Shown here: one piece after another, positions 3,823-33,692 of the stretch
Numbering within the stretch: position 1 is the first letter of the stretch
Layout: each line of letters opens with the position of its first letter
IMG/VR virus record: IMGVR_UViG_3300005253_000156
Span: 1 to 33,692 of that record
Reading direction: 5' to 3' (one strand)
DNA length: 33,692 bases
Source of the DNA: a virus
Notes under the pieces: model-generated
The model's database searches: none
What the model was told of the DNA's origin: nothing
What the model saw: only the letters and a program-made list of their open reading frames with translations
Made by a program: the position numbers and the translations under genes

Positions 3823-4634
3823 TCCTTCACCCTCCCCCCAAAATCTTTTTCGCACTCGGCGAAGTATCCGCAATACTTTCGAGAACAGAGAGTGCTCTGC
3901 CTATTTGGGACAAAATGCTCAAGCTCGATCTGTCGAGCCGTGAGCGCAATCATGTTCTTGAAATAAGTGTAGTCACTCTCGGTGAAGCTAACCGGAACAG
4001 GCACGACCTTGGCCGTCTTGGTTTTCACACAGTAATCCACCACGCCGCCCTTGGTCGGCTCTCCCGTCCTGGCCGCCGTTGCCATAGCGTATGCGGTCAT
4101 TTGAACGAAGTGATGCGGCTGTGGCTGTGGGTTGCCAGATTTGACACCTGGGGGGCTTTTGCCCACCACCTTGGTGTCCCTGATTATGTTACCCGTTTGC
4201 TCAACGTCGGGCACGATGAGTAAGTCATAGTCGAAATTGGGGATTTCCAGCCGCACCTTTTGTTGGGTGGCGACGGGCTGGACGGTGGGAGCAATCTCAT
4301 CTTGATACACTTTAATTACCCTCACGCCGTCGTCCTTTACATCCCCGACCTTTTCATCCTTGCCCCATTGAGTTTCACCCTTGCGGGCCTCGAAGTCGGT
4401 AGAGAACGCGTCCAGGACATCGTCCGTCGGCAGATCGGCAGCAGACTCGATCTTCTGCTCGTAGTTGTGGGTGATCCCCGTGTCCACGGCAGAGCCTAAG
4501 CTCATGGCCCCGCTCGGCGGCACTACGAGTCCGCAGACATAGCGGTAATACCATTGGGCAGAGCACCGTTGCATCATCAGGATTTGAGACGGCGACAGAT
4601 GGGGTCTCTTCTCGTTCGTTTCCAGCGCAACCAC
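3819..4634 (-). CDS. PD-(D/E)XK exonuclease with Cys cluster (RecB/Cas4-like)
   Basis: A 271-residue nuclease of the RecB/Cas4/AddB-like superfamily. Seen: N-terminal LSPSQILMMQRCSAQWYYRY (13-32) with C24, the GSAVDTGIT motif (48-55), PD at 142-143, the catalytic D-T-K at 153-155, a QMTAY motif (178-182), and a terminal Cys set C250, C255, C261. C24 plus the three terminal Cys match the 4Fe-4S arrangement known in this family. GTG 4634 is preferred because GGAGGA lies six bases upstream; a TTG two codons earlier would abut it. Probably degrades DNA ends to single strands for the downstream annealing protein. Confidence 0.8.
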   Translation of the reverse strand: MVALETNEKRPHLSPSQILMMQRCSAQWYYRYVCGLVVPPSGAMSLGSAVDTGITHNYEQKIESAADLPTDDVLDAFSTDFEARKGETQWGKDEKVGDVKDDGVRVIKVYQDEIAPTVQPVATQQKVRLEIPNFDYDLLIVPDVEQTGNIIRDTKVVGKSPPGVKSGNPQPQPHHFVQMTAYAMATAARTGEPTKGGVVDYCVKTKTAKVVPVPVSFTESDYTYFKNMIALTARQIELEHFVPNRQSTLCSRKYCGYFAECEKDFGGRVKE

Positions 4635-16687: not shown

Positions 16688-17091
16688 TACTCAATCCCCC
16701 GAAGCCTTTTGATCCGGCGTCTCTGGTCAAAGATTAGCTTTGCGGTTTCGCCTATTTCCCATTGAACCCTCACGGCCTTATAGTCCGAAGGCTTTTGGAT
16801 ATATTCGTTCGTCATCTGGATTATGAAGTTGAGCCTAATCTCTATATCGGCATCAGCCCCGTTCAGCCTCCTCGTCGCCCTGGCTACTTCCTCCTTGGTT
16901 CTTCCAAGGTCGCCCGAAGCGTAGGCTTCCATCATCTCCCGCTTGAGCTTCTCGTAATCGGCCCGGAGCCCCCTGGTGGCCGCATGAAGGGTGGCCTTGT
17001 TCAAAATAGGGGTGTGGGCCTGAGCCGTCCCCGGGAAGAGGCTAAAGACAAAAAGGCTACCAAGTAGAAATCGCAACCCTTTATTTAACAT
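16687..17091 (-). CDS. Exported helical protein of 134 aa
   Basis: I set the start at ATG 17091, with GGGGAG upstream, inside the end of the HNH gene. The N-terminus is a textbook Sec signal: MLNKGLRF, hydrophobic [11 protein letters not shown], and AQA-HT at the likely cleavage site. The mature chain is helical and Arg/Glu-rich ([20 protein letters not shown], then [15 protein letters not shown]). It may act in the periplasm. Function unknown. Confidence 0.55.
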
Positions 17092-17569
17092 GTTTCCACG
17101 TCTCCCCTGTTCTTGCTTCACTTATGGTAGACGAGCTAACTCCATAAATCTTCATCAGTTCCACACCGCTTCTCTTGTCCAGGCGAATTTCCTTAACAAT
17201 TTCCTCCGTTAGTTTTGCTGATGGACGATGTTCCCCTCGTGAAACACGCCCTGGATGAAGCCTCAACCCATGTCGTTCCCCAGAAGCCATGCGGCCCTTT
17301 GAAGCAGCATCTTGAATATTATCTTTCTGCGTGCCCACAAATAAGTGAGACGGATTTACACAGGGCGGATTGTCGCAATGATGGCACACAAACATTCCCT
17401 CGGGGATTGGCCCAACCTCCATTTCATAAGCTACTCGATGCGCCCCTGCCTGTTTGCCGTTAAGCTGGAGCGTGCCATATCCACCACCTGTCTTATTCAA
17501 GGTTCCTTTCCAAATCCAACAGCTGTCCCGGTCTAGAATATTCACTCGTGACCAAAATCGGTTTTTCAT
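17081..17569 (-). CDS. Free-standing HNH homing-type endonuclease
   Basis: A 162-residue HNH_3-type nuclease. [20 protein letters not shown] (20-39) leads to AHRVAYE (43-49), then [19 protein letters not shown] (62-80) holding the zinc Cys and the HNH His/Asn residues, and [11 protein letters not shown]. The C-terminal region ([20 protein letters not shown] to [12 protein letters not shown]) is a helix-turn-helix DNA-binding domain typical of phage homing endonucleases. It interrupts the tail-gene order between a small fibre-related gene and an exported protein gene, consistent with selfish insertion. The next gene starts within its last codons. Confidence 0.85.
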
Positions 17570-30245: not shown

Positions 30246-30620
30246 TTAAGTGTTCTCGGCCTTCTCCATCGCGCAATGAAGGTGCCTGTGCATATTATCC
30301 TCCATGACCACCAGATTGCTATGGTCGTTATTTAGCGGATTGCCGTCTATGTGGTGGACAACTTCGCTTTGCTTTAGTGGGCGACCTAATATTCCTTCAA
30401 CAAGGGCTCGATAGTCGAAGGTCCTTTGGTGTTTTCCATCAACAAGGCGGGAGACCATTCTGCGTCCTTGGTTGGTGATGTAACCTGAACCATTGGGCGC
30501 CTTTTCTCTTGCAAGGAGGCTTCCGTACCTAAACCAACGCATATAATGTTTTTTACACCACCCGCGCGCATAGTGTTCCGCGCCGCAACCCTCAATAGAA
30601 CAAGCCCGCTGGCGACTCAT
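30246..30620 (-). CDS. HNH endonuclease with N-terminal zinc knuckle
   Basis: 124 residues from ATG 30620, which overlaps the upstream stop. N-terminal CSIEGCGAEHYARGWCKKHY (7-26) is a zinc knuckle typical of phage HNH proteins. A NUMOD-like strand follows (GSGYITNQGRRMVSRL), then the HNH core VVHHIDGNPLNNDHSNLV (87-104). Free-standing homing-type nuclease, probably a selfish insertion in the late region just upstream of the head promoter. Confidence 0.85.
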   Translation of the reverse strand: MSRQRACSIEGCGAEHYARGWCKKHYMRWFRYGSLLAREKAPNGSGYITNQGRRMVSRLVDGKHQRTFDYRALVEGILGRPLKQSEVVHHIDGNPLNNDHSNLVVMEDNMHRHLHCAMEKAENT

Positions 30621-30949
30621 GCCCCCTGCCCACACTCGGCTTGCCACCAGTTCATCTTGCCGAGCCTTCCGGGGTTGCCTCCGCCGGGGGGCTCATCCCG
30701 AACCCCGAAGCCCGCGATATGTTCCTCGGTCCACGGGAACCCTGTCCTCGGGGAAACCCGGAGCACTACACCTTTGTCGCACTTTATGCAATACAACGAA
30801 CCGCCTTGGCGCGGCCTTTCCCTTTTGCCTGTTGGATTGAACTCGGTGCCGACTTTGTAGGTCCACTTCGTTAATTGGCCCAAGGCGTGGCCCAATGCCG
30901 ACGCCTTCCCCCGGGCTTTCTTCTCAAGCTGTGATATGGTTGTCGTCAT
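30617..30949 (-). CDS. Hypothetical 110-aa protein with Cys pair
   Basis: Starts MTTTISQLEKKARGKASALG. Contains YCIKCDKGVVLRVSPRTGFPW (53-73), a single CxxC with a beta hairpin, then ECGQGA at the C-terminus. It might complete a zinc site with the last Cys. ATGA overlap with the HNH gene. No family recognised. Confidence 0.5.
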   Translation of the reverse strand: MTTTISQLEKKARGKASALGHALGQLTKWTYKVGTEFNPTGKRERPRQGGSLYCIKCDKGVVLRVSPRTGFPWTEEHIAGFGVRDEPPGGGNPGRLGKMNWWQAECGQGA

Positions 30950-31304: not shown

Positions 31305-31471
31305 AGAGCAAATTCCACCTGCCTTTTCGCCCGCCGCTTCAAAACAGGGCAGTATTGCGTGGTAATGATGGGTTCATCGGTGAGCCAGCAATACTTGTAG
31401 TGAAACTCCCCGGCCTCGAATTGGCCGCAGTGGGGGCATTTGTAAAAATCCTCACGGTTGCGGTCGGTCAT
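31301..31471 (-). CDS. 56-aa zinc-ribbon protein
   Basis: MTDRNREDFYKCPHCGQFEA contains CxxC, then YCW and a later QYCPVLKRR, so two further Cys could complete a zinc site. ATG 31471 overlaps the stop of the 121-aa gene (TGACC/ATG) and its TGA overlaps ATG 31304. Similar N-terminus to other small zinc proteins here. Function unknown. Confidence 0.6.
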   Translation of the reverse strand: MTDRNREDFYKCPHCGQFEAGEFHYKYCWLTDEPIITTQYCPVLKRRAKRQVEFAL

Positions 31472-31830: not shown

Positions 31831-31877
31831 CACTCTCCCCTTGCCGCCACACGGTTGCGCTCAGTCTGCATTATCAT
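31830..31877 (-). CDS. Doubtful 15-aa frame
   Basis: ATG 31877 overlaps the previous stop by an A, and the frame MIMQTERNRVAARGE ends in a TGATG with ATG 31830. It begins like other proteins here (TERNR) but could be chance or a short coupling peptide that brings ribosomes to the next gene. Confidence 0.2.
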   Translation of the reverse strand: MIMQTERNRVAARGE

Positions 31878-32069
31878 TTACACCCCCGCAGGGGGAAGGT
31901 CTGACGCCTCCACATATGCGAGCCGCCTCCCAAGGGTCCGCCACATCATATATCTAGGCTGAAAAAGACGCCCCAGATGGAGCGCCTCATACCTCGCAAA
32001 AGCGTTTACGTCTAGGGCTTCCCAAGCCGTCGCCGGAATCCCCGCGTTTGCCCACCAGCGATCATCCAT
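31878..32069 (-). CDS. 63-aa paralogue of the gene at 33096-33329
   Basis: ATG 32069 lies within the end of the methyltransferase gene. Residues RWWANAG (4-10) and LFQPRYMMWRTLGRR (35-49), ending in PPAGV, match the 77-aa protein at 33096-33329 (RWWHND, LNQPKYMLWWAYG, AIAGV). The two genes also share their upstream boundary sequence. They are therefore paralogous copies flanking the methyltransferase. No function known; W/aromatic-rich. Confidence 0.6.
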   Translation of the reverse strand: MDDRWWANAGIPATAWEALDVNAFARYEALHLGRLFQPRYMMWRTLGRRLAYVEASDLPPAGV

Positions 32070-32085
32070 ATGCGCCTCTACGTTT
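32062..32085 (-). repeat. Junction repeat copy C (KRRGAYG-stop / ATG)
   Basis: Encodes KRRGAYG and stop at the end of the methyltransferase frame; the next ATG (32069) begins seven bases before the last base of the stop. Same boundary as copies at 33014-33037 and 33322-33345. Confidence 0.8.
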
Positions 32086-33021
32086 CAAACCCACGCGGTT
32101 CTCCCGCTCTAAAATCATCCTACCCACAACCTCGGCCACCTGTGGCACTACGGCGTTTCCAAGGGCTCTAAGGCGGTCCACCCGATTGGGAACCCCATGA
32201 GCCACTCGACCCAATAGGGGTTCAGCGTTCCACCAGCCGTCGCTACCAAGTTCTCTCCACCCTGCCAATATGGCCGCCTTGCCGCCCCCAAAAATGTGCG
32301 TGAATCCCTCTGCGTCGGCGTGGGCCACACCTTGACCCAGTTTCGTAACCGCCATTGGGAGGTCTGGCCCTTCTCCTCGTATTTCTTCCACCCCTCTGCG
32401 CTTCCTTTCCGACCCGCATCCTCTACTGTTATCGTGGGCCACCTCCTCACGTCCGTCCTCAAGCTCCGTCCCTGTCCCCCGCCTGTACTCCCCACCGAAT
32501 CCCAACTCGCTGGAGTAGCCCACAATGAACACTCTCTCTCGGAGGTGCGGCGCACCAGCGGACTCAGCTGAAATGACATCCCACTCCGCGTCATACCCGC
32601 CCTCGGCCAAGTCTCCGAGAACTCGTCCAAACCCTCGAACAAGGAGCCCTGGGACATTCTCCAGCAAGACGATTCGGGGTCGTACCTCGCAAATGATTCG
32701 GATGATTTCGGGCCAGAGCCACCGTTCATCTTCCTCGCCGAGTCGCTTGCCGGCAGTAGAGACTGGCTGGCACGGGAAGCCCGAAGCGATGCAATCCACA
32801 ACTCCACGCCAAGGCTTACCGTCGAAGGTCTTGAGGTCTGTCCAGATTGGGGCATCGCAGAGCAGACCATCTTTGATTCGACTAATAGTGACAGCCACGC
32901 ACCAAGGGTTTTTCTCAACGTAGCAGACAGCTCTAAAGCCTCCAGTTCGATGAAGGCCAAGCTCGATTCCTCCAATGCCGGAACATAGACCCAAGACATT
33001 TAATCTGGCCCCTTCATCCAT
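32062..33021 (-). CDS. C5-cytosine DNA methyltransferase
   Basis: 319 residues with all core motifs: LNVLGLCSGIGGIELGL (7-23, AdoMet site), GFPCQPVS (81-88, catalytic C84), LLENVPGL (119-126), RERVFIVG (161-168) and RLRALGNAVVPQVAE (283-297). The variable region near 170-270 is less ordered and probably includes the target recognition part. It would methylate cytosine at C5 to protect phage DNA from host restriction. The last 15 residues (ERENRVGLKRRGAYG) are not part of the usual fold; they match the end of the terminase gene 1.2 kb upstream. The gene is flanked on both sides by the same junction repeat, indicating cassette insertion. Confidence 0.9.
   Translation of the reverse strand: MDEGARLNVLGLCSGIGGIELGLHRTGGFRAVCYVEKNPWCVAVTISRIKDGLLCDAPIWTDLKTFDGKPWRGVVDCIASGFPCQPVSTAGKRLGEEDERWLWPEIIRIICEVRPRIVLLENVPGLLVRGFGRVLGDLAEGGYDAEWDVISAESAGAPHLRERVFIVGYSSELGFGGEYRRGTGTELEDGREEVAHDNSRGCGSERKRRGVEEIRGEGPDLPMAVTKLGQGVAHADAEGFTHIFGGGKAAILAGWRELGSDGWWNAEPLLGRVAHGVPNRVDRLRALGNAVVPQVAEVVGRMILERENRVGLKRRGAYG
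32148..32999 (-). CDS. Overprinted 283-aa Trp-rich frame inside the methyltransferase gene
   Basis: A same-strand frame, one base ahead of the methyltransferase frame, open for 283 codons with ATG 32999 about 9 nt after GAAGGGG. Composition is unusual: about 16 Trp plus Ser/Thr/Pro, with TWPRAGMTRSGMS, SLWATPASW, VWPTPTQRDS and the end LNPYWVEWLMGFPIGWT. I recall uncharacterised phage proteins with such WPTPT and WVEWLMGFPIGWT motifs, but cannot check whether these are always overprints of C5-methyltransferases. VAHADA in the enzyme frame and WPTPT here are the same bases, so conservation of either frame can create the other. May be a genuine overlapping gene or a recurrent shadow. Confidence 0.4.
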   Translation of the reverse strand: MSWVYVPALEESSLAFIELEALELSATLRKTLGAWLSLLVESKMVCSAMPQSGQTSRPSTVSLGVELWIASLRASRASQSLLPASDSARKMNGGSGPKSSESFARYDPESSCWRMSQGSLFEGLDEFSETWPRAGMTRSGMSFQLSPLVRRTSERECSLWATPASWDSVGSTGGGQGRSLRTDVRRWPTITVEDAGRKGSAEGWKKYEEKGQTSQWRLRNWVKVWPTPTQRDSRTFLGAARRPYWQGGENLVATAGGTLNPYWVEWLMGFPIGWTALEPLETP

Positions 33022-33037
33022 ACGCCCCTCGCCTTTT
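33014..33037 (-). repeat. Junction repeat copy B (KRRGAYG-stop / ATG)
   Basis: An otherwise non-coding stretch just upstream of the methyltransferase reads KRRGAYG-stop in one frame, with ATG 33021 overlapping in the same seven-base geometry as copies A and C. The codons differ at third positions from the other copies. Confidence 0.75.
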
Positions 33038-33095
33038 CACCGAAATCCCGTCGCCCGCCTTAGCTGTAGGCCCCCCGACGTTTCCGGCGCGGCCA
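33014..33095 (-). pseudogene. C-terminal gene remnant before the methyltransferase
   Basis: The gap between the 77-aa gene and the methyltransferase stays open in one frame, ending AGDGISVKRRGAYG-stop, without a start codon of its own. This looks like the 3' end of a lost gene carrying the same terminal peptide as terminase. An alternative 19-codon ATG frame (TGATG-coupled to the stop at 33096) exists but lacks any recognisable feature. Confidence 0.4.
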
Positions 33096-33329
33096 TCACA
33101 CCCCCGCTATTGCAAGGTCCCACGGGTCGGAGTAAGTGAACCCGTAGGCCCACCACAGCATGTATTTGGGCTGATTAAGAAACCGGCGCTGGACGGCATC
33201 CCAATCGTGGTGCGAGCCCCCCCGAGCCGCGGGCTCTTTCAACATCCGCAGGCCCTCCTTCACGCCAGCCTTGAAGGCCTCAAGGTAGTCAATGGGGGCG
33301 TTCAGGTCGTTGTGCCACCACCTACCCAT
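33096..33329 (-). CDS. 77-aa Trp-rich protein downstream of terminase
   Basis: ATG 33329 overlaps the terminase stop in the same way the 63-aa paralogue overlaps the methyltransferase stop, which decides this start over GTG 33338. Starts MGRWWHNDLNAPIDYLEAFK, ends in NQPKYMLWWAYGFTYSD and AIAGV. Helical and aromatic. No named family known. Probably a structural or packaging-linked small protein given its strict position behind terL. Confidence 0.55.
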   Translation of the reverse strand: MGRWWHNDLNAPIDYLEAFKAGVKEGLRMLKEPAARGGSHHDWDAVQRRFLNQPKYMLWWAYGFTYSDPWDLAIAGV

Positions 33330-33345
33330 AAGCCCCACGCCTCTT
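33322..33345 (-). repeat. Junction repeat copy A (KRRGAYG-stop / ATG)
   Basis: The last seven codons plus stop of the terminase gene, overlapping ATG 33329. This is presumably the original copy, since it belongs to the nuclease-domain end of a complete conserved gene. Confidence 0.8.
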
Positions 33346-33692
33346 GAGCCCGATACGATTCTCCTTCTCTATCTGGTCAATAAAATCATCGAAATTTATC
33401 GCAAAGCCCTCCGGGCGCTCATCCGGCGGATCAACATACGCCGGCAACTCCATCAGGCCCTTCCATGCCAAGGCCAGGGAAAACACCCGGTCATCGTGCC
33501 CCCCCGTACCGGCCTCATACTTCCCGGCCTTGTTCCGCACAAAACCGATACACTCGTCCAGCGCATCAGAGTCGGGGACAAAGATTTCCTTGTCCCTTAT
33601 CGCGCCCGCCAAGAAGTCAATCAATGGACCGCGCGTAACAGAAGTCGTCTTGAACCCCATCTTGCGAGTCTGACGACGACCGCGCTCCTCCT
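33322..33692 (-). CDS. terL: Terminase large subunit, C-terminal nuclease part (5' end outside window)
   Basis: The frame is open to the window edge, so this is only the last 122 residues. It reads GRRQTRKMGFKTTSVTRGPL, then LAGAIRDKEIFVPDSDALDE, GKYEAGTGGHDDRVFSLALA and the tail EKENRIGLKRRGAYG. The HDDRVFSLALA segment with its Asp pair is the typical last metal-binding element of the RNase H-fold nuclease of large terminases, and the KTTSVTRGPLID stretch is the preceding conserved helix/strand. The ATPase domain lies beyond the edge. Functions in DNA packaging with the portal. Confidence 0.85.
   Translation of the reverse strand, partial: EERGRRQTRKMGFKTTSVTRGPLIDFLAGAIRDKEIFVPDSDALDECIGFVRNKAGKYEAGTGGHDDRVFSLALAWKGLMELPAYVDPPDERPEGFAINFDDFIDQIEKENRIGLKRRGAYG

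Follow-up and report, generated by a model that had tools for sequence, protein, structure and literature searches.

Introduction

Phages carry moron-type insertions and orphan C5-methyltransferases, and integrases that act at the 3′ ends of tRNA genes insert DNA in such a way that the end of the target gene is restored and a displaced end is left behind. In mosaic phages, homologous recombination has been proposed to take place at short conserved boundary sequences between gene modules (cited in PMC3029335 and PMC3233612), and in Skunavirus, genes such as those for the HNH endonucleases HrdP are inserted between terL and portal (PMC12724721). Both boundary sequences and terL–portal insertions are already known. 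In phage T6, segmental amplification takes place at a homing-endonuclease locus (PMC13096335). Since scars of insertion can seldom be seen, it is hard to tell how phages acquire genes between essential ones while leaving these intact.

Here we analysed a window of 33,692 nt, the whole stretch from positions 1 to 33,692 of IMG/VR virus record IMGVR_UViG_3300005253_000156, in which the end of terL occurs in four copies that would constitute a readable record of insertion. The locus is like the Skunavirus HrdP case in that the same terL–portal interval is concerned, and this phage has an HNH gene there too (30246-30647). It differs in that the insert is a methyltransferase gene fused to terL-end copies; end duplication is not reported for Skunavirus in the available text of that study.

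Results

A second IMG/VR record of the same phage (IMGVR_UViG_3300005663_000017; L002, 43,333 bp) includes the whole window with 0 mismatches, and since 113 bp are identical at both of its ends, the genome reads from its sequence as complete and circular, and looks to be about 43.2 kb. On the minus strand, the gene order is terL, X1 (77 aa), the C5-methyltransferase gene (319 aa), X2 (63 aa), small genes including one for an HNH endonuclease, a putative portal gene and the major capsid gene; the gene following the small-gene block is the probable portal gene. The HNH gene in the terL–portal interval is one of two HNH_3 endonuclease genes in the window, the other lying at 17081-17569. The window contains the 3′ part of terL (33322-33690, minus strand), which encodes the C-terminal 122 aa of TerL (phrog_24361 terminase, 2e-9); the full gene, taken from L002 (1225-3075), is 100% identical to the window over the shared part. 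Full-length TerL matched phrog_24361 (4e-14) and phrog_2 (2e-11), which identifies it as a large terminase subunit, and had 0 matches in Pfam. The gene behind terL has its ribosome-binding site and its ATG within the last eight codons of terL, so that a functional X gene, or a gene replacing it, must bring a short piece of the terL end along.

A six-frame scan located four copies of the last terL codons within 1.3 kb, all on the minus strand, and scanning of the whole 43,333-bp L002 record found no further ones. Copy A (33322-33369, 24-nt core 33322-33345) is the end of terL itself and reads EKENRIGLKRRGAYG-stop. Copy D (33060-33083), which has no start codon, reads KRRGAYS-stop in the frame of X1, 12 nt past the X1 TGA. 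Copy B (33014-33037) reads KRRGAYG-stop in an orphan frame that ends no gene, and gives the methyltransferase gene its SD-like sequence and ATG. Copy C (32062-32109, core 32062-32085) reads ERENRVGLKRRGAYG-stop, a terL-type tail fused in frame to the methyltransferase. In copies A, B and C, an ATG overlaps the stop by 8 nt. The original prediction had described these three, each as KRRGAYG-stop with an overlapping ATG, with A closing terL, B a startless orphan frame and C closing the methyltransferase; sequence check and gene layout agree with it, except that its count of three overlooked copy D. Six-frame residue frequencies predict 1.4e-4 occurrences of KRRGAYx-stop in the genome, and none of 300 simulated genomes contained one.

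Copies A and C align over 15 residues, of which 13 are identical, so the methyltransferase does end in a match to the TerL tail as predicted. Over the corresponding 15 codons plus stop, 19 of 48 nucleotides differ, 12 of them at third positions, in line with the expectation that these positions would have diverged. Both residue changes are conservative, and none of 300,000 random mutants was equally conservative; this many nucleotide changes with only two conservative replacements indicates that both copies evolved as protein-coding ends. Any two core copies differ at 5-10 of 24 nt and share runs of at most 9 nt; the present copies are too diverged for ordinary homologous recombination among them. 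Copies B and D were located through the peptide, which makes their synonymous-only differences partly a product of how they were found; their clustering beside terL is the independent and stronger evidence. SD-like pairing to the 16S end falls within the KRRG codons (−6.7, −8.0 and −5.8 kcal/mol in A, B and C) and is modest in strength, at or near the better quarter of random positions. The translational coupling proposed for the stop/start overlap is plausible.

X1 (33096-33329, minus strand), a 77-aa ORFan, has its ATG within copy A, and X2 (31878-32069, minus strand; 63 aa) has its ATG within copy C. The two are paralogues, as had been claimed: BLASTP gave E=3e-5 (single comparison), and their global score was reached by 0 of 2000 shuffles. 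No relatives were found for X1 in IMG/VR and INPHARED or for X2 in INPHARED, and a match of X1 in MT837216 was rejected as a chance frame. Readthrough of the X1 TGA into copy D would likewise give a tail-ended product; the frame permits this, but as a main idea it was rejected, since X2 ends at the same AGV-stop. Behind X2, a mini-ORF at 31835-31879 (MIMQTERNRVAARGE-stop) is like the ERENRV part of the tail, and another ERENRV-like stretch stands at the start of a 56-aa gene (31450-31469); both may be due to chance.

The gene between copies B and C (32062-33021, minus strand) encodes a C5-cytosine DNA methyltransferase of 319 aa that matched PF00145 (2e-38) and TIGR00675 (8e-30) with scores over the curated cut-offs (132.8 bits versus 22 and 104.5 versus 100.65, respectively). 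The motifs GFPCQ, ENVPG and C-terminal GNAVVPQ are present, and P83, C84, Q85, E121, N122, V123, G288 and N289 are invariant in the alignment (A2). Alignment of the ends revealed that the first ~7 and last 14-15 residues are absent from relatives. The C-termini of relatives read ...VPQVAEWVGRRIIDDN or ...IAYWLGTRIKDAQ, whereas the window enzyme runs on with RENRVGLKRRGAYG; relatives stop (...GRRIIDDN, ...GTRIKDAQ) exactly where the tail starts, which shows the tail to be an addition to the enzyme. On the N-terminal side, relatives begin at motif I, and the window enzyme, starting from the ATG in copy B, is ~7 residues longer. These alignments support a borrowed start, from copy B, and a borrowed stop, from copy C. 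A restriction partner was looked for with PADLOC, which gave no match for X1, X2 or a 121-aa neighbour, restriction enzymes being diverse. An AlphaFold model of the methyltransferase had a mean pLDDT of 51.8 and was left unused.

Searches for relatives reached only distant ones. The closest TerLs had about 33% identity in IMG/VR and at best 31.7% in INPHARED, and neither a terL above 33% identity nor the tail at a gene end in a comparable relative was found in IMG/VR, INPHARED or a GTDB scan. Queries with the TerL tail, X1, full TerL, portal and methyltransferase in IMG/VR, and with TerL, X1, X2, portal, capsid and methyltransferase in INPHARED, returned distant or own matches only. Among 80 distant relatives TerL tails vary widely, and KRRGAYG was rejected as a general terL motif on that ground; some related TerL ends are basic and aromatic (...RRGRRRY, ...RRSRRAW). 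In IMG/VR, a degenerate pattern for KRRGAYG-stop with an overlapping ATG occurred in this phage and five contigs, about as many as chance would give by an estimate of about ten; outside this phage the scan gave unrelated or chance matches, and no boundary sequence shared at the same junction by several phages. The pattern GLKRRGAYG had six matches in GTDB genomes, none of them at the end of a recognisable gene. One unrelated TerL (contig L010, 7390-8901) likewise has KRRGAYG as its last seven residues, and the portal ATG overlaps its end by the same 8 nt. Given that its 83% relative ends RRLRGEYG with the same overlap, the L010 tail probably reflects convergence, which an overlapping ribosome-binding site would drive. 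That the tail might be widespread by chance at unrelated gene ends, the refutation envisaged with the original prediction, was not borne out by the GTDB matches or by L010.

The closest methyltransferase relative found (53%) is in an unrelated phage, L018, where the gene lies between terS and terL; L018 was reached through the methyltransferase search and is a non-random sample. The stop of its methyltransferase gene overlaps the ATG of an orphan frame whose beginning duplicates the 5′ end of terL over 86 bp (L018:2072-2157 versus 2555-2640). This displaced copy lies directly behind the methyltransferase, and the intact terL starts 0.5 kb downstream of it. The copies are 98% identical, a repeat that could contain an assembly error, L018 being a metagenome contig. 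Moreover, a second copy of the terL stop region follows downstream at a stop-to-stop distance of ~180 bp, with 18 of 19 nt matching (L018:3850-4029). This 3′-end repeat scored 16 against a shuffle maximum of 10, with EISRY-stop expected 4e-5 times, and a 58-aa ORF between the terL-end copies closes in frame with the terL tail peptide. Copies of a terL end outside terL were present at just two of the 85 terL loci tested, those of the window phage and of L018; repeats in L065 and L105 were rejected (an intergenic element, and a repeat off the terL end). The L018 interval 3850-4029 has a tRNA-like T-arm, a 7-bp acceptor-like pairing (CCAGGGT/ACCCTGG) and CCCA. A tRNA between the copies was rejected, the T-arm-like stretch having no ARAGORN or Rfam gathering match.

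Other methyltransferase relatives occupy varied positions. In L016 (236-2737), L017 and L019, the related methyltransferase gene is followed, after two other genes, by a separate TerL nuclease ORF (PF20441), and may sit inside a split terL; confirmation of the upstream ORF of L016 as the TerL ATPase part failed. In L020 the gene is near replication genes and in an Acinetobacter phage among regulators, and with these two away from terminase genes, association with terL is no rule.

Discussion

We propose, at a probability of roughly 0.6, that the four copies are scars of recurrent insertion at the terL 3′ end, that is, displaced terL ends and not a working linker. The terL/X junction would have received or exchanged genes several times, the incoming DNA coming from diverged related phages whose TerL had the same conserved terminal peptide. 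Each surviving event would have left one whole terL end upstream, now copy A, and a displaced end downstream (D, B and C). The methyltransferase gene would be one such insert, joined at its 5′ side just past the ATG of copy B and at its 3′ side just ahead of the last 15 codons of copy C. Copy C and X2 would derive from one terL, as its displaced end and its neighbour gene, respectively; copy A with X1 would belong with the terL in current use, and copies D and B would be scars from other events. No dedicated recombinase would be needed, only selection among survivors for a whole terL and a translatable next gene; the need for both would make breakpoints cluster at the terL end, and donors with the same TerL tail would account for many silent and few amino-acid changes. 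How many events there were, in what order, from which donors and by what recombination route is inferred; the donors are hypothetical, since no phage was found whose own terL ends in copy B, C or D, and no relative with an empty site is known. At 7-8 codons, copies B and D are short, and their homology could be only partial.

The anatomy of the locus, the borrowed ends, the paralogy, the locality of the copies and the L018 parallel are direct observations. A whole end upstream with truncated copies downstream, the arrangement expected of insertion with a displaced target end, was found here (A; D, B, C) and in L018. A startless D and a B that closes no gene are more readily explained as leftover terL ends than as maintained linkers, and the restriction of the copies to the neighbourhood of terL, together with duplication of tail plus gene (A–X1 and C–X2), also favours displaced ends. 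The duplications of both the 5′ and the 3′ end of terL in L018 provide an independent parallel.

The main rival takes LKRRGAYG as a working C-terminal tag through which TerL and, by acquisition, the methyltransferase would dock on the same partner (portal, small terminase or DNA), with methylation at packaging. Conservation of residues and not bases between the two tails, the basic and aromatic character shared with some related TerL ends, and the placement of the tail exactly behind the methyltransferase domain are consistent with it. The A/C conservation can nevertheless predate the fusion, the same peptide stands in B and D, which are not ends of recognisable genes, TerL tails differ widely among relatives, and the tail is on no other gene of this phage; we regard the tag as unlikely. 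The original prediction suggested that gene cassettes are exchanged at the stop/start linker, each insertion being translationally coupled; as a rival model, this takes the linker to be kept as a place of exchange through homologous recombination. Part of this stood, as the methyltransferase gene does lie between copies, with its start from B and stop from C and with an SD-like sequence and ATG in the linker, and in other phages, too, proposals of short boundary sequences exist (PMC3029335, PMC3233612). The divergence of the copies, with their short common runs, the missing ATG of copy D, the failure of copy B to end a gene and the absence from IMG/VR and INPHARED of a relative with another gene between copies all weigh against exchange, which we consider doubtful.

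It is a rather doubtful extension that some C5-methyltransferase genes are mobile cassettes that enter at terL ends, restore the terL end and leave displaced ends, with the window phage and L018 as two independent cases and, in the window phage, a displaced tail that may also hold the enzyme at the packaging machinery. If the terL end and X had been duplicated in tandem within the phage, with methyltransferase insertion and long divergence afterwards, no foreign terL ends would be required; the X1/X2 paralogues behind tail copies and the recent 86-bp duplication in L018 are compatible with it, but untranslated B and D would have lost the peptide while silent sites neared saturation, and this origin is improbable. 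Most improbable is recurrence of the peptide by chance or convergence because RRGAYG codons hold an SD-like sequence and an overlapping ATG. The unrelated L010 TerL and its RRLRGEYG relative illustrate how that could happen, yet four local copies stand against the 1.4e-4 expected per genome, and the match between A and C extends over 15 residues. Copies A and C cannot be due to chance, and B and D are unlikely to be; for copy D alone chance or convergence is possible.

The ribosome-binding site of the next gene inside terL supplies a mechanical reason why the record was kept, and terL ends can be tested as hot spots of insertion, given the parallel from an unrelated phage whose methyltransferase is related. 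A limited literature search turned up no earlier account of displaced terL ends occurring as a set, one of them joined to an accessory enzyme. Like the described boundary sequences, the repeat is short, lies at gene junctions and has a different gene between copies; unlike them, it occurs several times in one genome, is nested in the terL coding sequence and is conserved at the protein level only, and exchange between genomes was not seen. As in T6, a phage segment is duplicated and a flanking gene end is truncated at microhomology, although the T6 event was recent and laboratory-selected, whereas this one is old and its copies have diverged. The arrangement also resembles tRNA integration, with a whole target end upstream and displaced copies downstream, but the target is protein-coding, no integrase was noticed beside it and the copies are diverged. 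Finally, as with morons and orphan C5-methyltransferases, a single accessory gene for an ordinary PF00145 enzyme lies among structural genes; what sets it apart is that both its start and its stop are borrowed from the end of the neighbouring essential gene.
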